DNA of 47,784 nucleotides from Bacillota bacterium (GTDB lineage Bacteria; Bacillota; Limnochordia; JAAZLZ01), in contig JAAYLV010000072.1 in assembly GCA_012521755.1 (NCBI GenBank), forward strand, positions 1-47,784. The letters are read 5' to 3'. How positions within the stretch are numbered: the first letter of the stretch is position 1; every line of letters starts with the position of its first letter. The position numbers and the translations under genes are program-made. Shown piece after piece: positions 4,642 through 38,795 of this stretch. The notes under the pieces are model-generated. The model worked only from the letters and a program-made list of their open reading frames with translations. It was not told the DNA's origin and ran no database searches.

Positions 4642-5847
4642 TTATCCGGGCAAAGACGGGGACTCGGTCAAACGCTGGGCTTCCGACTCGGCGATGATGA
4701 CCGCACCGACCAAGTCACCGGTGATGTTGGTGGTGGTACGAATCATGTCGAGGATTCGATCGATGCCGGCAATTAGCGCAATGCCCTCCAAAGGCAGGCC
4801 AACGCTGGTGAGCACCATGGACAGCATGATGAGGCCTGCGCCGGGCACTCCAGCAGTGCCGATGGAAGCCAAAGTGGCAGTGAGGACGATCATTAGCTGC
4901 TGACCAAAGCCAAGGCCGATTCCGTAGACTTGCGCGATGAATAAGGCGCATACCCCTTGATACAAGGCGGTACCGTCCATGTTAACGGTAGCGCCCAAAG
5001 GCAGGACGAAACTGCTGATTTGGTTGGGGACCCCTAGTTTGCGGGCGGATTCCATTGAGATGGGGAGGGTCCCTGAGCTGCTGCAGGTGCTGAAGGCGTA
5101 GATCATGGCCGGTGAAACGTCCCGGAAGAATTGCCAGGGACTCATCTTGCCCAATCCTCTCACCAGGGGGCTATAGACGATGAGCCAATGGAGGATGCAG
5201 CCAAGATACACCGCGAGGATGACCTTGAATAACGGAAGCACCACTCCTAGTCCGTAGGATGCAACTACCGGCGCGATGAGAGCGAAGACTCCGTAGGGAG
5301 CAAGCTCCATGATTACGCCGGTCAGCTTGTACATGACTTCGGCGAAGGCATTGAAAAAGTCGAAAACAAGTTGAGCTTGCTTGCCGACCATGGTGATGCC
5401 AAGCCCTAAGAACAGGGCAACGACGATGATTTGGAGCATGTTTCCTTCGATCATTGCTTGAAATGGATTGGTGGGAACAAGACCTAAGATGACGCTCGCC
5501 GCGGAAGGAGGCTCCGCAGCCGTCACTTGGGCTGCCCCAACGTCGATCGAGAGCCCCTGTCCTGGACTGATGAAGTGCGCGAGGAGGAGTCCGATGATGA
5601 CGGCAAAGGCTGTTGTTGCCAGGTAGAACATCAGAGTCTTGCCGCCGATGCGTCCCAGGGATCGGATGTCGCCGATGTTGGCTGCTCCCACTACTAATGA
5701 AGAGAAAACCAAGGGGATAATAATCATTCGGATCAGGTTCAGGAACAAGGTGCCAATAGGGGCGATGCTCTTGGTCAGGGGTCCTAAGATCGCACCAGCC
5801 ACGATGCCGCCTGCAAGGCCGATAAAGATCTTGGTATGAAGCTTCAC
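4642..5847 (-). CDS. Dicarboxylate/amino acid:cation symporter (DAACS, GltP/DctA-like)
   Basis: STCSSSGTLPISMESARKLGV...LPLGATVNMDGTALYQGV and GTAGVPGAG motifs. Confidence 0.95.
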   Translation of the reverse strand: MKLHTKIFIGLAGGIVAGAILGPLTKSIAPIGTLFLNLIRMIIIPLVFSSLVVGAANIGDIRSLGRIGGKTLMFYLATTAFAVIIGLLLAHFISPGQGLSIDVGAAQVTAAEPPSAASVILGLVPTNPFQAMIEGNMLQIIVVALFLGLGITMVGKQAQLVFDFFNAFAEVMYKLTGVIMELAPYGVFALIAPVVASYGLGVVLPLFKVILAVYLGCILHWLIVYSPLVRGLGKMSPWQFFRDVSPAMIYAFSTCSSSGTLPISMESARKLGVPNQISSFVLPLGATVNMDGTALYQGVCALFIAQVYGIGLGFGQQLMIVLTATLASIGTAGVPGAGLIMLSMVLTSVGLPLEGIALIAGIDRILDMIRTTTNITGDLVGAVIIAESEAQRLTESPSLPG

Positions 5848-9317: not shown

Positions 9318-9755
9318 ATGCCCATGTTCATGGGGGAGTATCAGCATACCCTGGACAATAAAGGACGGCTAATCATCCCGGCCAAATTCCGAGCCGGACT
9401 AGGTGAGCGATTCATCGTCACGCGGGGTTTGGATGGGTGTTTGTTTGCCTACCCCCTCAAGGAATGGGAAATCCTGGAGAGCAAACTCAAGGAGCTCCCC
9501 TTAACCAAGAGCGATGCCCGCTCTTTTGTCCGCTTCTTCTTTTCGGGAGCGAGCGAATGTGAGCTGGACAAACAGGGGCGGATCATGCTCCCGGCAAATC
9601 TTCGCGAATATGCCCAGATGACCAAAGATGTGGTGGTCATCGGCGTTGCCAATCGAGTAGAGCTGTGGAGCAAGGAACTGTGGGATGAGTACATGGACAA
9701 GGCTACCGCCTCCTATGAAGAAATCGCGGAGAAAATCGTCGAGCTGGGCATTTAA
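9318..9755 (+). CDS. mraZ: Transcriptional regulator MraZ
   Basis: [23 protein letters not shown] and second DxxGR repeat ([18 protein letters not shown]). Confidence 0.95.
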
Positions 9756-9776
9756 GGCCCAATTGGAGGATGCGGT

Positions 9777-10721
9777 TTGAGTTACCACCATGTTCCAGTG
9801 ATGCCCAAAGAAGTCGTGGAGGTCCTAGCGTGCCGGCCGGGGGGGACTTATGTGGACTGCACGGTGGGCGGCGGCGGCCATGCCCGCCTTATCCTGCAGC
9901 AAATCGGACCCCAAGGACGGTTGATCGGCATCGATAGGGATCCCGCGGCTATCGCCGCTTCCCAGGAAAGCCTCCAGGAGTTCGCCGACCAGGTCACCCT
10001 GGTTAAGGCCAACTTTTTCGGCCTGGGGGGAGTCCTGTCGGACCTAGGTGTGCAGGAAGTGGACGGCTTCCTCTTTGATCTGGGCATCTCGTCCCATCAA
10101 GTAGATGTACCCCAAAGGGGCTTTAGCTACATGCATAATGCTCCTTTAGATATGCGGATGGATCCGTCTGTACCCCGCACCGCCGCTGAACTCTTGAACA
10201 CGGCTTCGGAGGTGGAACTCAGGGACATCATCAGCCGGTATGGGGAAGAGCGGTGGGCAGACCGGATTGCCGCGGCGATTGTGGCCGCCCGCCAGAAAGA
10301 GCCTTTCGTCACCACTTTTCAACTAGTCGATGTCGTCAAGGATGCTATCCCAGCCGCCGCCCGTCGACGGGGGCCTCATCCTGCCAAGAGAACCTTTCAA
10401 GCCCTGCGCATCGCGGTCAACGATGAACTAGGGGGAATTGCCAAAGCCCTCCGGCAAGCAGTGGATTTTCTCAAGCCCGGTGGACGCATCGCGGTTATTT
10501 CCTTCCATTCGCTGGAGGATCGGATTGTCAAGAAGACCTTTAGGGAACTGGCCCGGTCTTGTGTGTGCCCTCCAGAAGCCCCCGTCTGCATCTGCAGCCA
10601 AGAGGCCAAAGTACGAGTCATCACCCCCCGGCCTTTGGTTCCTAGGCAGGAAGAGATAGAGGTGAATCCTCGGGCGCGCAGTGCCAAGCTGAGGGGCGCT
10701 GAGAAGTTGGGAAGGAAGTGA
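9777..10721 (+). CDS. rsmH: 16S rRNA (cytosine(1402)-N4)-methyltransferase RsmH
   Basis: YVDCTVGGGGHARLIL...DLGISSHQVD...ALRIAVNDEL...ISFHSLEDRIVK; TTG start. Confidence 0.95.
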   Translation: MSYHHVPVMPKEVVEVLACRPGGTYVDCTVGGGGHARLILQQIGPQGRLIGIDRDPAAIAASQESLQEFADQVTLVKANFFGLGGVLSDLGVQEVDGFLFDLGISSHQVDVPQRGFSYMHNAPLDMRMDPSVPRTAAELLNTASEVELRDIISRYGEERWADRIAAAIVAARQKEPFVTTFQLVDVVKDAIPAAARRRGPHPAKRTFQALRIAVNDELGGIAKALRQAVDFLKPGGRIAVISFHSLEDRIVKKTFRELARSCVCPPEAPVCICSQEAKVRVITPRPLVPRQEEIEVNPRARSAKLRGAEKLGRK

Positions 10722-24062: not shown

Positions 24063-24800
24063 TCATTCCAGCTGCTTAATCTCCTTGCGGAGCTTCTTCA
24101 GGATTTTCTTCTCCAGGCGGGAGATGTATGACTGCGATATTCCCAGAAGGTCGGCTACCTCCTTCTGGGTTTTTTCTTTGACAAACCGCTCCTGAATGAT
24201 CTTCTTCTCCCTGTCGGTCAACCGCTCGATGGCCCGCTCGAGGATGGCCCGGTCCGTTTGCTCCTCGATGTATTTGAGCACATCGCTTTCGGTCCCCAAT
24301 ACATCGGACAAGAGAAGTTCGTTGCCGTCCCAATCGGTATTCAACGGTTCATCGAAAGATATCTCCGCCCTCGTCTTGCTGCTTCGCCGCAGATACATGA
24401 GGATTTCATTTTCAATGCAGCGGGAGGCGTAGGTGGCCAGTTTGATCTTCTTGCCCGGATCGAAGGTGTTGACCGCTTTGATGAGGCCGATAGTCCCGAT
24501 GGAGACTAAGTCCTCGATGGAAACCCCTGTGTTATCGAACTTGCGGGCGATGTAGACTACCAAGCGCAGATTCCTCTCGATCAGGGTCCCCTTGACGCTC
24601 CGATCTCCCGCCTCAAGGCGGCCAATCAAGGCGGCTTCCTCTTCCGGGGACAGCGGGGGAGGAAGTACTTCGCTGGAACCTACGTAGTAGATCCCCCGGG
24701 ACATAATGCCGATGCGTTGGAGCAGGCGAATTACAAAAAGCTGGACCGATAGTCCAAGTCGTGCTTTGAAGGGTATCATCCACCGTCCTCCTCCTGTCAT
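24063..24800 (-). CDS. sigE: Sporulation sigma factor SigE (pro-form)
   Basis: N-terminal pro-region then [82 protein letters not shown]. Confidence 0.95.
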
Positions 24801-25768
24801 ATTTGCGGGCTATGACACTTGGCCGATCCCCAGCTGGCCCCTTGTTTGAGGAGGGCCCTGTGGATCACTTCCGGGTGAATCAATGCCCGGTAGGAGCCTT
24901 CCGGACATAGTCGGTTGTGGTAAAGACCGATGATTACCCCTTGGCCTAAAGGGATGCAGCTTTGGCCTACCATCACCCCCGCCTCATCGCAGCGAAGTCC
25001 GATCAACATCCCCTCCCTTTTCCCGATGGACGCGTAGGGGATGACCCGCAGGCGCGTCGACCAGGGGTGGGGGATCTGATCGATGCTGTCCAACTCTCCC
25101 CCCTCGAGGCGTCTTGCCGCTTCAAACACTGCCTGGGGGAGGAAAGAGGTCAAAGCCGACTCCTCAACGATAATCACGGGGGCCCGGGAGATGGGATCCC
25201 GCAAGTGATTGCCTGAATCCACCAGGGCAGTAATGGATAGTTCCGTGTCATTGAAGCGAATGGACAGGGGAATCTGGTAAAAATGATACCAGATTTGTTT
25301 TTGGATGAGACCCCAGCCGAGTTCGGCGATGATGAGGAGGACTCCCACGGACGTGATCGCGCCAAGGAAAACGTTAGGCTTGTGGGGCGAGCCGAACAGG
25401 TTGGCAATCAAGGTGCCTGCCCCCCCAGCGGTGCAAAAAATGAAATAGAAGTAGGCGGCGACGGTCAAAAGGCGCGTTGGTGGCAGGGGATAGAAGGCTG
25501 CGCCGAGCATCAACAAAGAGGCCAGGAACATGGTCAGTGGAGAACGCCAAAGGCCGTATAGGGGCAAGATGCGATAAAAGGCCAGCCGCTCCACGAGGAA
25601 GTACAAGGCGCCGATGCCGGCACCCCAAAAAAGCCGCTTGCGGTGGACGGGTATTTTCATCACTTCCCTGGTAGCCCAGAGAAGGAGCAGATCAAAGAAC
25701 CAATTGGCCATCGCCATGGCGAGCAATTGGTCAAGGTAGATTATGTAGGCCATGCGCATCCCCCCCAA
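24797..25768 (-). CDS. spoIIGA: Sigma-E processing aspartic peptidase SpoIIGA
   Basis: Polytopic N-terminus, [21 protein letters not shown] catalytic region, adjacent to sigE with ATGA overlap (start may be MAYIIYLDQ at 25753). Confidence 0.92.
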
Positions 25769-25894: not shown

Positions 25895-26668
25895 ATGAAC
25901 AAGGTAGAAATTTGCGGGGTAAACACCTCCAAACTTCCTGTCCTGGGCAACGCTAAGATGCAGGAACTGCTGGCGAAGGTGCGGGAGGGGGACCTTAAGG
26001 CCCGCGAGGAGTTGGTCCAGGGCAATCTGCGCCTTGTTCTCAGTGTGATTCAGCGCTTCAACAATCGCGGCGAGTGTGTTGACGACCTGTTCCAGGTCGG
26101 CTGTATCGGCCTGATGAAAGCCATCGACAACTTTGACCTCAGTCAAAACGTGAAGTTCTCGACCTACGCGGTACCAATGATAATTGGGGAGATCCGCCGC
26201 TACTTGCGGGACAACAACCCCATCAGGGTGAGTCGCTCCTTGCGGGATATCGCCTACAAAGCCCTTCAGGTGCGGGACAGCCTCGTCAACAAGTATGCCA
26301 AAGAGCCCACCATCAGCGAGATTGCCGCCGAGCTGAAGCTGCCCCGGGAAGAAGTAGTCTTCGCCCTCGATGCCATTCAGGACCCGGTCTCCTTGTTCGA
26401 ACCAATTTATCACGATGGGGGCGATCCCATCTTCGTGATGGATCAGATTAGCGACGATAAGAATCAAGATGGCAGCTGGATCGAAGGGATTTCCATCAAG
26501 GAGGGCTTGGGGCGTCTTAACGAGCGGGAGAAGATGATTTTGACGAAACGGTTCTTCGAGGGTCGCACCCAAATGGAGGTGGCCGAGGAGATCGGCATCT
26601 CCCAGGCCCAGGTCTCGCGCCTGGAAAAAGCGGCTCTCAGGCACCTGCGCAAACAGATGAGCGGCTAG
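25895..26668 (+). CDS. sigG: Forespore sigma factor SigG
   Basis: NKVEICGVNTSKLPVL...GCIGLMKAIDNFDLSQNVKFSTYAVPMIIGEIRRYLRDNNPIRVSRS. Confidence 0.97.
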   Translation: MNKVEICGVNTSKLPVLGNAKMQELLAKVREGDLKAREELVQGNLRLVLSVIQRFNNRGECVDDLFQVGCIGLMKAIDNFDLSQNVKFSTYAVPMIIGEIRRYLRDNNPIRVSRSLRDIAYKALQVRDSLVNKYAKEPTISEIAAELKLPREEVVFALDAIQDPVSLFEPIYHDGGDPIFVMDQISDDKNQDGSWIEGISIKEGLGRLNEREKMILTKRFFEGRTQMEVAEEIGISQAQVSRLEKAALRHLRKQMSG

Positions 26669-31200: not shown

Positions 31201-32088
31201 GTGCGGGAGTTGGGGGAGTATCTACGGAATGAGCGGATAAGGAGAGGCTACTCCCTAAAGGATATCCAGGAACAGACCAAGATCCGCATGCGTTATCTTG
31301 AAGCTATCGAGAACGGTGAATTCCAGCATATTGCCGCCGAAGTGTATGTCAAGGGTTTTCTGCGCAGTTACGCCGAGGCCATTGGCCTTAACGGCTGGGA
31401 TGTGGTTGCCCGTTACCAAGGGTTGAAGGCCGAGCAGGAGGCTGAAATCGAGGAAGAAAAGCCCCGACGCGCCCCCCGTCGTCGGACTCGTCGTCGATCC
31501 CTGCGGCCAGCTTTCTTCTTGCTGCTTCTAGTCGGCGGGCTGATCTATCTTTTTGGCTTCCGGTCCGAACCGGGCGTCCAGGAGGTCCTCCCGGAAGAGC
31601 CGGTTCCTCCGGCCGAAGAGATCGTTGTCGATGAACCAATCCCCGAGGCGGTGACCGTCGATGAGCCGGAGCCAGTGATGGAAATGGAGCTGCCGTCTTT
31701 GCCGGAGGTGACGGTGGAGGAGTCCTTTTCCTTCAGTCCGGTGGAGATTCCCGCGGAAGACCCGCTAATCGAAGCTGTTTTGCCGGAGGAGCCTGAACTG
31801 CCGGACGAACCCCCCGTGGAGGAGCCGCCCCGTGCCTCTTTTGTGCTGGAGGTAGTCGTCGAGGAGACATGCTGGTTTGAGGTGCACGCCGATGGAGAGC
31901 GCATCGTTTACCGCAACTTAGAAGCAGGCGAGGAGGCCCGGTGGGAGGCAGAGCATGGTCTTTGGGTGCGAATAGGCAATCCAGTCGGTGTTAAGGCCTT
32001 CTTCAACGGCGAACCGGTGAGTCTTCCTACCAGGACCGTGGCTACCCTCCAGTACGGTGAGGGCGGCCGGAAGGAAGCTGCGGAATGA
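31201..32088 (+). CDS. RodZ-like HTH/TM protein with DUF4115-like C-terminus
   Basis: N-terminal LGEYLRNERIRRGYSLKDIQEQTKIRMRYLEAIE, single TM, E/P/V-rich linker, CWFEVHADGERIVYRNLEAGEEARWEA. Confidence 0.85.
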   Translation: MRELGEYLRNERIRRGYSLKDIQEQTKIRMRYLEAIENGEFQHIAAEVYVKGFLRSYAEAIGLNGWDVVARYQGLKAEQEAEIEEEKPRRAPRRRTRRRSLRPAFFLLLLVGGLIYLFGFRSEPGVQEVLPEEPVPPAEEIVVDEPIPEAVTVDEPEPVMEMELPSLPEVTVEESFSFSPVEIPAEDPLIEAVLPEEPELPDEPPVEEPPRASFVLEVVVEETCWFEVHADGERIVYRNLEAGEEARWEAEHGLWVRIGNPVGVKAFFNGEPVSLPTRTVATLQYGEGGRKEAAE

Positions 32089-34751
32089 CGAAAAGAGCGA
32101 GGATGCTGATTTTAGTCCTGATCGGTGGGGCAGCCATGCTGCTTGTGGCGGGCAGCGGCTGGTACACCGATCTTCTCTGGTTTCATGCCCTAGGCTATGG
32201 AGGGGTGTTTTGGCGAAGCATCCTGTACCAGGCGGGAGTGCGCCTGGCCGTAGGCTTAGCCTTCGCCTTATTCATGTTTGCCAACTTATCCTTCGCCCGC
32301 GGAGAAATGGAGCAGGCCCTTGGCCGCCTGGGAGAGCGGGTGCCCCCCTTTGTCACCTCCCGTTCCATCACTAGTCTGTTCGTGTTGATAAGCGTGATCT
32401 TGGGCTTTTTGTATTCTACGGCCCTGGGACAGAATTGGGAGGCGGTGATGGGCTTTCTCAATGCCCAGGCCTTTAATCGGACCGACCCCCTTTATGGCCG
32501 GGATATCGGTTACTTTGTTTTCAAGCTGCCTTTTTATCGCTTACTGAACGGGGCTGCGATGGGGATCGTGGCGGAAACGCTCCTGGTCGTCTTGGTGATC
32601 TATGTGCTGTCCCGCTCCATCAGCTTTGCCGGCAGGCGTTTTCAGGCTGCAGGGGGCGCTAAGTATCACCTCACAGCTTTGGCCGTTGGCATCCTCCTCC
32701 TTAAGGCCTGGGACTATCGGCTCCAGCTCGATGAGCTCGTCTATTCCCCGCGGGGAGGGTTCTTCGGGGCCGGCTACGCGGATGTACATGCTCTGGGGCC
32801 GGGCCTTAAGATCCTGCTCATCCTTTCTCTTCTGGCTGCGGCCTTGTTGGTCGTAAACCTTTTTCGCCCTGGGATGCGGGGGTTTGTCATCACCCTGGTC
32901 GGTTTGGCCGCAGCTTCCCTGATCCTGGGCGACATTTATCCGGGAATGGTTCAGCGTTACGTAGTCGAGCCTAACGAACTGGAGCGGGAGCGCCCGTTTA
33001 TCGAGCACCACATCCAGGCGACTTTGGCCGCCTACGGTCTAGCTGATGTGGACGAGAGGGAGTACCCGGGGGATGCAGACCTTGATTGGGGGCTTTTGCA
33101 AGGGTCGAGAGCGACGTTAGATAGCATCCGGCTGTGGGATTGGCGGGCTTTGGCCCAAACCTACAGCCAACTCCAGGAGATGCGCTTGTACTACAAGTTT
33201 CCCGATGTAGATGTGGATCGCTACATGGTGGACGGCAAGTACCGCCAAGTAATGTTGGCCGCACGGGAGATCGAGATTGAAAGGCAGCCTGTCAAGACCT
33301 GGGTCAACACCCATCTGCAGTACACCCACGGCTATGGCGTCGTCATGTCCCCTGTCAATGAGGCGACGGACGAGGGGCTTCCCAACTTCTTCATCAGCGA
33401 TATCCCCCCAAGAACGCGGCATCAGGAGCTCACCATCACTCGCCCGGAGATCTACTACGGGGAGCGGACAGATCAGTACGTCATCGTCAACACTAGACTC
33501 CCCGAGTTTGACTATCCCTTAGGTGAGGAAAATGCCCTCACCCGCTACGAGGGCAGGGGAGGAATACAGCTCACCAGTTTCCTCCGCCGGGCGGCCTTTG
33601 CTTTGCGTTTTGGCACGGCTAAGATTCTCCTTTCCCGGGATATCACCAGGGACAGCCGCCTCATGTTTCGTCGCACCGTCAACGAGCGCGTCCGGGCAAT
33701 TGCCCCCTTCCTGCGCTACGATCCGGATCCTTATATTGTCCTCGACGAAGGCCGGCTCTTTTGGGTGATGGATGCCTATACCGTTACGGACCGCTATCCC
33801 TATTCCCAGCCCTATCGGGGATGGGGCAACTACGTTCGCGGTTCGGTCAAGGTCATCGTTGATGCTTATCATGGGACCGTGGATTTTTACATCATCGACG
33901 ATGAGGATCCCCTAATTAGAATGTACAGCCAGGTATATCCCGGGCTGTTCAAACCTATCGAGGCGATGCCCAAGGGGCTGCGCGAGCACCTGCGCTACCC
34001 AGAGGAGCTTTTCCGACTGCAGACGAGGGTCTATGCCCTCTATCACATGCGCAGCCCGACCGTCTTCTACAACCGGGAGGACTTGTGGGAGCCGGCCCGG
34101 GAAGTGGCTTGGGGCCGGGAGCAGGAGATGAGTCCCTATTACGTCATCATGGGGCTGGAAGGGGACGCGGAGGAGTTCGTCCTGATGCTGCCCTTCACCC
34201 CGGCCCGGCGAAACAACATGGTGGCCTGGATGGCCGCCCGCTGCGACGGGGAAAAGTATGGCCAAATCCTGGTGTACCGCTTCCCCAAACAGGCTCTGAC
34301 TTATGGCCCGGCCCAGATCGAGGCCCGCATCGACCAGGATACCTTCATTTCCCAGCAGCTCACCTTGTGGAGCCAGACGGGCTCCCAAGCAGTCAGGGGG
34401 AATCTCCTGGTCATCCCCATTAGAGGATCCTTGCTGTATGTAGAACCGTTATACTTACAGGCGGAGCAAAGTCAACTGCCTGAGCTGAAGATGGTTATCG
34501 TCGCCTACAAGAACCGCATTACCATGCAGCCTACCTTCCAAGCCGCCTTGGAGGAGATATTCGGCAGACCCCGGGAGGCAGTTCCCCAAGAGCCGCGGGA
34601 GCTGCCAAGCCAGGATGGGCTAATCCGTCAAGCGGTGGAGTACTATAAGGAGGCGCGGCGGCAGCTCGAGGAGGGCGATTGGGTGGCCTATGGGGAGTAC
34701 ATGGCTAGACTACAGGCGGTGATGGAGCAGCTAGAGGGTCTGATCGAGTAA
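32085..34751 (+). CDS. UPF0182 family membrane protein
   Basis: Multi-TM N-terminus (WYTDLLWFHALGYGGVFW) and long soluble domain (ERERPFIEHHIQATLAAYGL, MSPVNEATDEGLPNFFISDIPP). Confidence 0.93.
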   Translation: MTKRARMLILVLIGGAAMLLVAGSGWYTDLLWFHALGYGGVFWRSILYQAGVRLAVGLAFALFMFANLSFARGEMEQALGRLGERVPPFVTSRSITSLFVLISVILGFLYSTALGQNWEAVMGFLNAQAFNRTDPLYGRDIGYFVFKLPFYRLLNGAAMGIVAETLLVVLVIYVLSRSISFAGRRFQAAGGAKYHLTALAVGILLLKAWDYRLQLDELVYSPRGGFFGAGYADVHALGPGLKILLILSLLAAALLVVNLFRPGMRGFVITLVGLAAASLILGDIYPGMVQRYVVEPNELERERPFIEHHIQATLAAYGLADVDEREYPGDADLDWGLLQGSRATLDSIRLWDWRALAQTYSQLQEMRLYYKFPDVDVDRYMVDGKYRQVMLAAREIEIERQPVKTWVNTHLQYTHGYGVVMSPVNEATDEGLPNFFISDIPPRTRHQELTITRPEIYYGERTDQYVIVNTRLPEFDYPLGEENALTRYEGRGGIQLTSFLRRAAFALRFGTAKILLSRDITRDSRLMFRRTVNERVRAIAPFLRYDPDPYIVLDEGRLFWVMDAYTVTDRYPYSQPYRGWGNYVRGSVKVIVDAYHGTVDFYIIDDEDPLIRMYSQVYPGLFKPIEAMPKGLREHLRYPEELFRLQTRVYALYHMRSPTVFYNREDLWEPAREVAWGREQEMSPYYVIMGLEGDAEEFVLMLPFTPARRNNMVAWMAARCDGEKYGQILVYRFPKQALTYGPAQIEARIDQDTFISQQLTLWSQTGSQAVRGNLLVIPIRGSLLYVEPLYLQAEQSQLPELKMVIVAYKNRITMQPTFQAALEEIFGRPREAVPQEPRELPSQDGLIRQAVEYYKEARRQLEEGDWVAYGEYMARLQAVMEQLEGLIE

Positions 34752-34786
34752 AGACAACTTTTCCCCATTCTTCCCTCGCTTGGGTT

Positions 34787-34813
34787 ATATAGCCCCTCCT
34801 TCCCTCATATATT
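34787..34813 (+). promoter_or_regulatory. Candidate mother-cell (SigE-type) promoter of spoIIP
   Basis: ATA(34787-34789)-N16-CATATATT(34806-34813); compare SigE consensus ATA-N16-CATACAnT. Confidence 0.4.
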
Positions 34814-34827
34814 TTCGAGGAAGGAGG
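34795..34827 (+). promoter_or_regulatory. Hairpin sequestering the spoIIP Shine-Dalgarno
   Basis: CCTCCTTCC(c)TC paired with GAGGAAGGAGG; the right arm contains the SD AAGGAGG; no T tract follows. Confidence 0.7.
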
Positions 34828-34830
34828 TCG

Positions 34831-35628
34831 ATGGAAGTGGCAAGGTTTAGAGGCGGCGAGAAAAATGGTCCTGGTCTGCTTTTCATTCTGGTTGTGCTGG
34901 TCGTAGTGGCAGTATTGGGGGCCAAGTACTTCGGGTTTGCGCCGGGAGGCAGACAGGTCCGACCCGTCCCTCCGCAGGATGCCGGGGAGAAGGCGGCCCC
35001 CGAACCTGCTCTTCCGGTAGTCGTCATCTATCACTCCCACACCACCGAGAACTACTCTCCGGGGGACTCCCACACCAGGGGTGAACCAGGGCAAATCGTG
35101 GAGGTGGGCGCGGAACTAGGCCGAGCTTTGGAGGCTAAGGGCATCAAGGCCATTCACATCACGGAAATCCACGATTACCCCAAGTACAGCGAATCATATA
35201 CCAATTCTCTGAAGAGCTTGCGCCAGGTCTTGGACACAGGGGTTGTGGTTGGAGCAGTCCTGGATATTCACCGCGATGGTCTTCCCCCTCGGCCCCCGGG
35301 TTACACGACGGTAAAGGTCAACGATGCGGAAGCAGCTACCATCCTCTTTGTCGTGGGGGATGAGGATAATCCCTACATGGAGCAGAATCTGGCCTTTGCT
35401 GAAGCGCTGCGGGATTTGATGGAGGATATGTACCCGGGGCTGTCAAGGGGAATCAAGGTTCAGCACGCAATGCTCAACGGCTCAGCCCATCCCCAGTCCG
35501 CGACGGTCTTTATTGGCGACTACCGCGGCAATACCATCGCCGAGGCCAAGTATGCGGCGGCCCTGCTAGCCGATATCGTAGCTGCCTACATCAGGGGAAT
35601 TGCCGGGGTGCCCGCGAACGGAATGTAG
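34831..35628 (+). CDS. spoIIP: Stage II sporulation protein P (SpoIIP)
   Basis: N-terminal TM; VVIYHSHTTENYSPG; VLDIHRDG; NPYMEQNLAFAEAL...HPQSATVFIGD. Confidence 0.9.
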   Translation: MEVARFRGGEKNGPGLLFILVVLVVVAVLGAKYFGFAPGGRQVRPVPPQDAGEKAAPEPALPVVVIYHSHTTENYSPGDSHTRGEPGQIVEVGAELGRALEAKGIKAIHITEIHDYPKYSESYTNSLKSLRQVLDTGVVVGAVLDIHRDGLPPRPPGYTTVKVNDAEAATILFVVGDEDNPYMEQNLAFAEALRDLMEDMYPGLSRGIKVQHAMLNGSAHPQSATVFIGDYRGNTIAEAKYAAALLADIVAAYIRGIAGVPANGM

Positions 35629-37096: not shown

Positions 37097-38795
37097 GTCC
37101 ACCCTCGGGCCCGACGAACTTGCCGTCTTGCGGGACTTGTGCCAAGGCACTTACGATGCCCCCGCCTGGTTTCAACTCCGGCAGCGAGCTGAACTGTTGG
37201 CCTTGCGCAAAGGCTTCGAATCCCTTTGGTGCTTAGAGCACCTGCCTGATCTGCGCTTGTATCCCCACCAGGAAAAGGCCGTCTTTGCCGTCTTGCGGGA
37301 CATGCGGGGGAGGGCCATCCTGGCCGATGAAGTAGGCCTGGGGAAGACCATCGAAGCTTTGGCAATCCTGATGGAGTATTGGCTGCGGGGCCTTGTCCGC
37401 CGGGCCCTTATCCTGACGCCGGCTTCCCTCGTCAGCCAATGGCGGGGAGAAATAACGAGCAAGTTTAAGCTGCCGGTCGTTGAGGCCAGGAGCACCCAGC
37501 ACTGGCACCAAGGTCCCCTGGTCTTAGCCTCCCTCGACACGGCCAAGAGGCCCCAGCACGCCGAAGTAATCGGACAGGTCCTCTGGGATCTGGTAATTGT
37601 GGATGAGGCCCATCATCTGAAGAATAAGGCGACAATCAATTACCGCTTCGTCGACGGGCTCAAGAAAAAGTACCTGCTCCTCCTGACGGCAACTCCCCTG
37701 CAAAATGATCTCGGCGAACTTCATAATCTAGTGACTTTGCTGCGGCCAGGGCAGCTGGCCACCTACAGCGAGTTTCGGCGCACCTTCACCTTCGATCGCC
37801 GCTCCCCCCGGAACTTGCCGGAGCTTCGCCGCCTATTGAGGGAGGTGATGGTGCGCACCAGCCGGAAGGCCGCGATGCTCCCCCTCACTAATCGGCGGAT
37901 AATGACCAAGATGGTCCCCTTGACCCCGGAGGAGCGGGAATTTTACGAGAAGGCCCTACGCGAGCTTCGCCGGCTTTATCGGGAAAACCCTGACCGCCCC
38001 CAGAATCTATTATTCCTCGTCCTCATCCTCCGGGAGATATGCAGCAGCCCTTGGGCTGCGGGACGGACCTTGCAGCTCATGGCCAGTCGCGGCAAGGTAT
38101 CCGAGGACATGGGGCGGGCTTTTCGGGATCTGGCAAGTCTAGCGGCCGGGGTAAGCCGCTATGGGAAGATCGAAGCTTTGTTGGACTTTCTAACCGAGCA
38201 CGGGGATGAGAAGGTCTTGATCTTTACTTCCTTCCGGCAGACCCAGGCCTTGATCGCGGCGGCCTTAAAGGAACAGGACATAGCCCACTGTCTCTTCCAT
38301 GGAACCATGGATCAGACCGAAAAGGATGAGGCGGTATTTGCTTTTGCGGAAGGCTGCCGGGTCATGGTCAGCACGGAAGCGGGCGGTGAAGGTCGGAACC
38401 TGCAGTTTTGCCGTCTCCTCGTCAACTTCGATCTGCCATGGAACCCGATGCGCCTTGCCCAGCGCCTTGGCCGGATCGATCGGTTGGGACAGACCCGGCC
38501 GATAGTCGGCCTAAACCTAGTTGCCCAAGAAAGCATCGAGGAACACGTCCTATTTCTCCTCGACAAGAAACTGCAAATGTTCACCAAGGTGATGGGGGAA
38601 ATTGACCCGTTGCTTGGGGAGTGGAGCGGTGAGAGCATGGAGTACCGGTTGGGGAGGCTCTTTTTGTCCTTGGAAGGAGAGGCCCTGGATGGAGAAGTCG
38701 CCCGCATGGGCGATGAGCTGGTCCGTTCATGCTTTGATGCAGGGCAAGTGGCGAGCCTGAACCGGCTGCTCCTCGATGAGGAGGAGGAAGGATGA
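37086..38795 (+). CDS. SNF2/RapA-like helicase (cassette 1)
   Basis: LYPHQEKAV...ILADEVGLGKTIEA...VIVDEAHHLKN...LLTATPLQND...VSTEAGGEGRNLQFC...DLPWNPMRLAQRLGRIDRLGQ; ATG 37086 inside the end of murC-2. Confidence 0.93.
   Translation: MQVESTLGPDELAVLRDLCQGTYDAPAWFQLRQRAELLALRKGFESLWCLEHLPDLRLYPHQEKAVFAVLRDMRGRAILADEVGLGKTIEALAILMEYWLRGLVRRALILTPASLVSQWRGEITSKFKLPVVEARSTQHWHQGPLVLASLDTAKRPQHAEVIGQVLWDLVIVDEAHHLKNKATINYRFVDGLKKKYLLLLTATPLQNDLGELHNLVTLLRPGQLATYSEFRRTFTFDRRSPRNLPELRRLLREVMVRTSRKAAMLPLTNRRIMTKMVPLTPEEREFYEKALRELRRLYRENPDRPQNLLFLVLILREICSSPWAAGRTLQLMASRGKVSEDMGRAFRDLASLAAGVSRYGKIEALLDFLTEHGDEKVLIFTSFRQTQALIAAALKEQDIAHCLFHGTMDQTEKDEAVFAFAEGCRVMVSTEAGGEGRNLQFCRLLVNFDLPWNPMRLAQRLGRIDRLGQTRPIVGLNLVAQESIEEHVLFLLDKKLQMFTKVMGEIDPLLGEWSGESMEYRLGRLFLSLEGEALDGEVARMGDELVRSCFDAGQVASLNRLLLDEEEEG

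Follow-up and report, generated by a model that had tools for sequence, protein, structure and literature searches.

Transposase genes of the IS10/IS50 type are shielded from outside transcription because read-through mRNA folds over the ribosome-binding site (RBS), whereas mRNA begun at the element's own promoter stays open. In phage T4, the Shine-Dalgarno (SD) sequences of gene e (lysozyme) and I-TevI are hidden in long early transcripts, whereas transcripts from late promoters, which lie within the DNA of the 5' arm, lack that arm and are translated; lysozyme synthesis was measured to be ~100-fold lower from the structured transcripts (PMC3014915). In Bacillus subtilis, sigG is located 3' of spoIIGA-sigE, and a large hairpin has been proposed to block translation of the read-through mRNA (PMC5942855).

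We analysed a 47,784-nt stretch of Bacillota DNA (hereafter the window) in which a comparable element precedes spoIIP. We consider it likely that this element is a read-through guard, with no RNA or protein data at hand; what was computed in its favour comprises the hairpin, its compensatory conservation, its position inside a promoter, a co-directional neighbour, and a shorter RNA that is predicted to lose the structure. The likeness to T4 lysozyme drawn in the first-pass annotation of the window is apt (PMC3014915), and B. subtilis sigG offers a closer precedent (PMC5942855). Like gene e, spoIIP encodes a cell-wall enzyme whose SD is predicted to be hidden in a long RNA, with an inferred short RNA lacking the arm, but the T4 cases are phage genes under a phage late sigma factor with measured repression, whereas the effect at spoIIP is inferred. 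In B. subtilis sigG, mRNA begun at that gene's sporulation promoter is unable to fold the hairpin (PMC5942855), and the same is predicted for spoIIP. The sigG case differs in that it concerns one gene with a SigF/SigG promoter and read-through from another sporulation operon, whereas at spoIIP the promoter is SigE-like, the read-through would come from a vegetative gene, the product is a cell-wall enzyme, and the arrangement recurs across a class. IS10/IS50 elements share the same RBS-hiding logic, but are mobile elements unrelated to sporulation. In the window, the genes that we take from translations read by eye to be sigE/spoIIGA (24063-25768, minus strand) and sigG (25895-26668, plus strand) were divergent, and therefore sigG read-through of the B. 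subtilis type cannot arise there.

The window spoIIP gene (34837-35628, plus strand) encoded a short form of the protein that cleared the curated cut-offs of both PF07454 (E=1.8e-51; 175.7 bits vs 24.4) and TIGR02867 (140.4 vs 123.15). Judged from the sequence, GTG at 34837 is more likely to be the start codon than ATG at 34831, because it is situated 9 nt after the SD (vs 3 nt for the ATG) and yields an M-A-R N-terminus that is conserved in relatives. The gene order was ftsK, rodZ-like, UPF0182, spoIIP and a Mur ligase gene, with the UPF0182 membrane protein gene (32085-34751, plus strand; PF03699 E=2.4e-286) as the putative source of read-through transcripts; its stop codon was 43 nt ahead of the left arm of the hairpin and 68 nt ahead of the SD. 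At nearly all spoIIP loci, the nearest upstream gene was co-directional and its end was 30-140 nt away from the SD; from sequences read by eye these neighbours are presumably UPF0182, RodZ-like or Hsp33-like. The few loci with another context involved either a second paralogue or GC-rich DNA with a long minus-strand ORF.

RNAfold of 34795-34836 placed the SD AAGGAGG (34821-34827, plus strand) wholly inside an 11-bp stem with one bulge (34795-34827; -16.1 kcal/mol), reproducing the burial described in the first-pass annotation, so that the SD is predicted to be fully paired in read-through RNA. The left, anti-SD arm (CCTCCTTCC-C-TC; 34795-34806, plus strand), which was conserved and covarying in orthologues, lay in the promoter spacer and extended into the -10 element. 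Positions 34795-34803 and 34805-34806 paired with the right arm (GAGGAAGGAGG; 34817-34827, plus strand), leaving 34804 as a one-base bulge, in the structure (((((((((.((..........))))))))))). No T tract followed the window stem, again as previously noted, and this feature of an intrinsic terminator was thus absent. The predicted cost of opening the spoIIP SD was 10.7 kcal/mol, joint top among 31 window genes with strong SDs (mean 5.1). The other gene with a cost of 10.7 kcal/mol, at 38791, has its SD within the preceding ORF, which is probably ordinary translational coupling. No Rfam family exceeded its gathering score in 34500-35100, where the only match was to mir-1181 at chance level.

The left arm is embedded in a SigE-like promoter composed of a -35 element GTTATATA (34784-34791, plus strand) and a -10 element CTCATATATT (34804-34813, plus strand) that lies mostly in the hairpin loop and occurs at the same place in most orthologues as CATATATT or CATATAGT. 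This bore out the element reported in the first-pass annotation (ATA at 34787-34789, N16, CATATATT at 34806-34813), and ATA at similar spacing recurred upstream of spoIIP orthologues. The base preceding the -35 ATA in the window is T, and the SigE consensus has A or C immediately before it. With its ATA core, CATA-type -10 and GTTATATA-N12-CTCATATATT arrangement, the window element met the 8-mer, 12 +/- 1, 10-mer format of B. subtilis SigE promoters, and spoIIP, spoIID and cwlD are SigE genes in B. subtilis (PMC517825). Within the class, apparently Limnochordia, spoIIIAA and spoIVA carried GCATATAT / MATATAG elements. That SigE uses the window promoter in the mother cell is inferred by analogy only.

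The 5' end is likewise inferred: from the promoter position, transcription would start ~6-8 nt past the -10, at 34819-34821 (plus strand). In most of the 63 loci with a recognisable -10, this element ended 6-8 nt before the SD, and therefore promoter-started RNA would drop the left arm, although no 5' end has been mapped. Both the start beyond the left arm and the open sporulation mRNA that had been proposed earlier agree with these predictions: the window SD cost fell from 10.7 to ~1.6 kcal/mol (1.5-1.7 for RNA starting at 34818-34820). Across 67 spoIIP loci, the predicted SD cost was 10.9 kcal/mol in read-through RNA vs 1.6 when the RNA was begun 2 nt ahead of the SD, and SD pairing probability dropped from 0.81 in read-through to 0.24 at the predicted start, with a reduction in 62/63 loci.

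We propose that read-through mRNA from the vegetative UPF0182 operon, carrying both arms, would form the hairpin and thereby bury the SD of spoIIP, such that little SpoIIP would be made during growth; this translational silence and its size are both inferred. In the mother cell, SigE polymerase would initiate ~6-8 nt beyond the -10, at the SD itself, and because the left arm is promoter spacer DNA, the resulting mRNA would lack it and leave the SD open to ribosomes. As the hairpin would form only in transcription from the housekeeping neighbour, production of SpoIIP should require initiation at the gene's sporulation promoter.

Of 73 genomes of the class (apparently Limnochordia), 68 contained a spoIIP orthologue, which gave 67 upstream regions from 14 families, one mis-located row having been omitted. 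An SD-complementary arm, covarying with G-U wobbles, preceded spoIIP in most of the 67 loci and most families. The first-pass annotation had named absence of the left arm from close relatives as a refutation; this was not seen, as both congeners keep the arm, and the covariation that the annotation suggested looking for was present as compensatory arm changes in most other families. On 32 aligned loci, a 12-bp stem was 91.1% paired, compared with 52-61% when the register was slid, and it contained 10 double-change cells as well as 12 further pair types; of 500 shuffles, none matched the stem in four of five measures, and 18 did so in the fifth. When a covariance model was trained without the window's genus, the window hairpin was the best match in its genome (E 0.004), as was the hairpin in both congeners. 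Matches of model R1 at L276, L277, L279, L280 and L282 were rejected, their layout not being the same. The left arm was situated just 5' of the -10 in families f1, f5, f13, f9, f10, f11 and f14 and in one f4 genome, while f2 and f8 had longer hairpin loops. In family f6 it lay upstream of the -35, placing the entire promoter in a ~50-nt loop, with SD pairing retained at an opening cost of 11.2 kcal/mol (85-nt window). The arm of family f3 differed and was weaker, arms were poor in two f4 genomes and in parts of f7, and the anti-SD arm was absent from the spoIIP upstream region of f12. Members of f12 (L133, L156; G017, G040) carried a GC-rich palindrome of ~16 bp around the -35. In genomes G054, G060, G061 and G062 (f15, f16), neither spoIVA nor, at 1e-45, a spoIIP orthologue was found, and these families have probably lost sporulation.

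Purine-rich SDs readily find a pyrimidine partner upstream, and the window hairpin by itself proves little, since the stem alone was only mildly unusual against shuffles (z -2.21; 4/200) and the wider fold of 34780-34850 proposed as a check in the first-pass annotation gave a z of only -0.95 (32/200 shuffles); the case beyond chance therefore rests on comparative evidence. SDs also paired often in shuffled sequences (mean ~0.6 vs 0.81), which left the pairing-probability shuffle test with low power, and opening cost was adopted in its place. By this measure the 67 spoIIP loci had a mean z of 2.64, with 69% ranking in the top 2 of 31, whereas control sets put through the same procedure remained at background level: spoIVA averaged 4.1 kcal/mol (n=25), spoIIIAA 6.3 (n=13) and a canonical SpoIIP paralogue 5.6 (n=16), compared with 4.6 for 267 genes of the relative G065. 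This background sample was 400 kb of one relative, not the window's own genome, and the terminator-like spoIIIAA 'SDs' of G013 and G028 were excluded from the later control set. Together with the covariation, these values make chance or base composition, already disfavoured, an extremely improbable explanation. Grouping all sets by context gave a mean cost of 10.5 kcal/mol for co-directional genes without a terminator, 6.3 with a terminator and 6.2 for divergent genes; as this comparison is confounded by gene identity, we do not take it as proof.

The hairpin could instead act chiefly on the upstream operon, terminating its transcripts or marking them for processing. The strength of the spoIIP stem would suffice for RNase III or pausing, and a T tract directly followed the SD stem at 19/24 spoIID loci, so the stem there could also terminate transcription (stems ending at the start codon as possible intrinsic terminators: L384-L412; G000:C54 (L444)); with a T tract at just 2/67 spoIIP loci and none in the window, this is an unlikely main function at spoIIP. 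An inverted repeat overlapping promoter DNA might also be an operator, with a dimeric repressor or activator binding the palindrome, and SpoIIID and GerR do repress many B. subtilis SigE promoters, including repression of spoIIP by GerR (PMC517825). The arms nevertheless tolerated G-U wobbles far above C-A mismatches (68 to 22), an excess that favours RNA over a DNA operator, albeit somewhat biased because arm position was picked by a score rewarding G-U. Arm sequence also varied by gene and family while complementarity to the SD stayed, and in f6 the arm is displaced from the promoter yet still paired with the SD, indicating that the arm follows the SD and not the promoter; we regard an operator as quite unlikely. 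Translational coupling, in which ribosomes completing the upstream ORF unfold the hairpin and make spoIIP dependent on upstream translation, not silenced, would suit f13 and f5, where the upstream stop is only ~30 nt from the SD, near the left arm. It is very unlikely as a general account, because the stop precedes the left arm by 43 nt in the window and, in f2, f6 and others, is separated from the SD by 57-125 nt, and because coupling gives no reason for a promoter to initiate immediately beyond the left arm.

A read-through guard may not be confined to spoIIP, a recurrence that the first-pass annotation did not mention. When the 400 kb of G065 were scanned for buried SDs, the top ranks were a ClpP/TepA-like gene, a CwlD-like amidase, an IS30 transposase and SpoIID, followed by YunB, DpaA, SpoIVB, SpoIIP and SpoIIID interspersed with non-sporulation genes. 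Seven of the top 20 (SpoIID, YunB, DpaA, SpoIVB, SpoIIP, SpoIIID and DpaB) exceeded NCBIfam sporulation cut-offs vs 0/20 random others (Fisher p 0.008, or 0.003 counting CwlD, a further sporulation gene in the top 20 that scored below its cut-off). Hairpins were confirmed in orthologue sets of spoIID (mean SD cost 13.7 kcal/mol, n=24), vanW-like (12.2, n=29) and cwlD-like genes (11.2, n=18), and the dpaA (dipicolinate synthase A) set averaged 11.0 kcal/mol (n=26) with a SigK-like CATATAGTA between the arms of the SD hairpin (L414-L443; G000:C43 (L452)). In the window's own genome, costs were high for spoIID (25.4), cwlD (11.2) and dpaA (10.6), and lower for vanW (5.5). Some cwlD loci retained the hairpin despite a terminator-like sequence upstream.

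Individual loci showed further detail. Immediately 5' of the match, VanW/YoaR-like loci (L354-L383) carried GAATAAACT/GAATAGACT/CATATATT in the loop between strongly covarying arms, and the genes that were checked lay 3' of a YvcK-like gene. Hairpins that bury the SD, again with covarying arms, preceded CwlD-like amidase genes (L295:10813-11538, G065 C1:430813; 30 loci, L324-L353), upstream of which was also a conserved CTTGCYTAAAGG block of unknown role. The ClpP/TepA-like gene (L294 ~5230-5302; G065 C1:405300) had an 18-bp SD hairpin with CATACTA, which resembles a SigG -10, inside it, and its SD cost of 19.4 was the highest of the 267 G065 genes. The IS30-family transposase gene (L300 ~9740-9813) had a strong SD hairpin, as expected for shielding from outside transcription.

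Outside the class, spoIIP of Bacillus pinisoli had an SD cost of 14.3 kcal/mol with a CATA element between the hairpin arms, and CATA was likewise enclosed in five more genomes of the phylum, at costs of 8.7-14.3 kcal/mol. The Bacillus-type loci with this layout are L086:1930-2003, L455, L456, L457, L458 and L459. The Bacillus-type spoIIP of L086 sits right after a gpr-like gene. Five other genomes of the phylum (L460-L464), probably Paenibacillus-like, showed little sequestration, with spoIIP SD costs of just 1-5 kcal/mol. We lean towards the view that the class, and in part Bacillus relatives, use promoter-embedded read-through guards throughout sporulation, so that mRNA would be translatable only if the stage-specific sigma factor had initiated it. 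This reading takes in spoIIP, spoIID, cwlD-like and vanW-like genes with SigE-like elements, dpaA with a SigK-like element and possibly the ClpP/TepA-like gene with a SigG-like one. Sporulation-wide use is not yet proved, because the only unselected scan covered 400 kb of one genome, and the other gene sets were chosen as follow-ups of the G065 scan or of the first model.

The type of mechanism is already known from T4 gene e and B. subtilis sigG, and the novel part would be this use across sporulation. The breadth of the layout was not described in the papers that could be searched, which did not include those that first described B. subtilis spoIIP and sigG read-through. In compact genomes sporulation genes adjoin vegetative genes, and early expression of the SpoIIP and SpoIID hydrolases could harm growing cells. 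If the proposal is true, the guard would act as a second lock on stage-specific expression, with translation depending on the sigma factor that started the mRNA, and the sequence from -35 to -10 would be under selection at the RNA level. The layout would also offer a new route to sporulation promoters from sequence alone.
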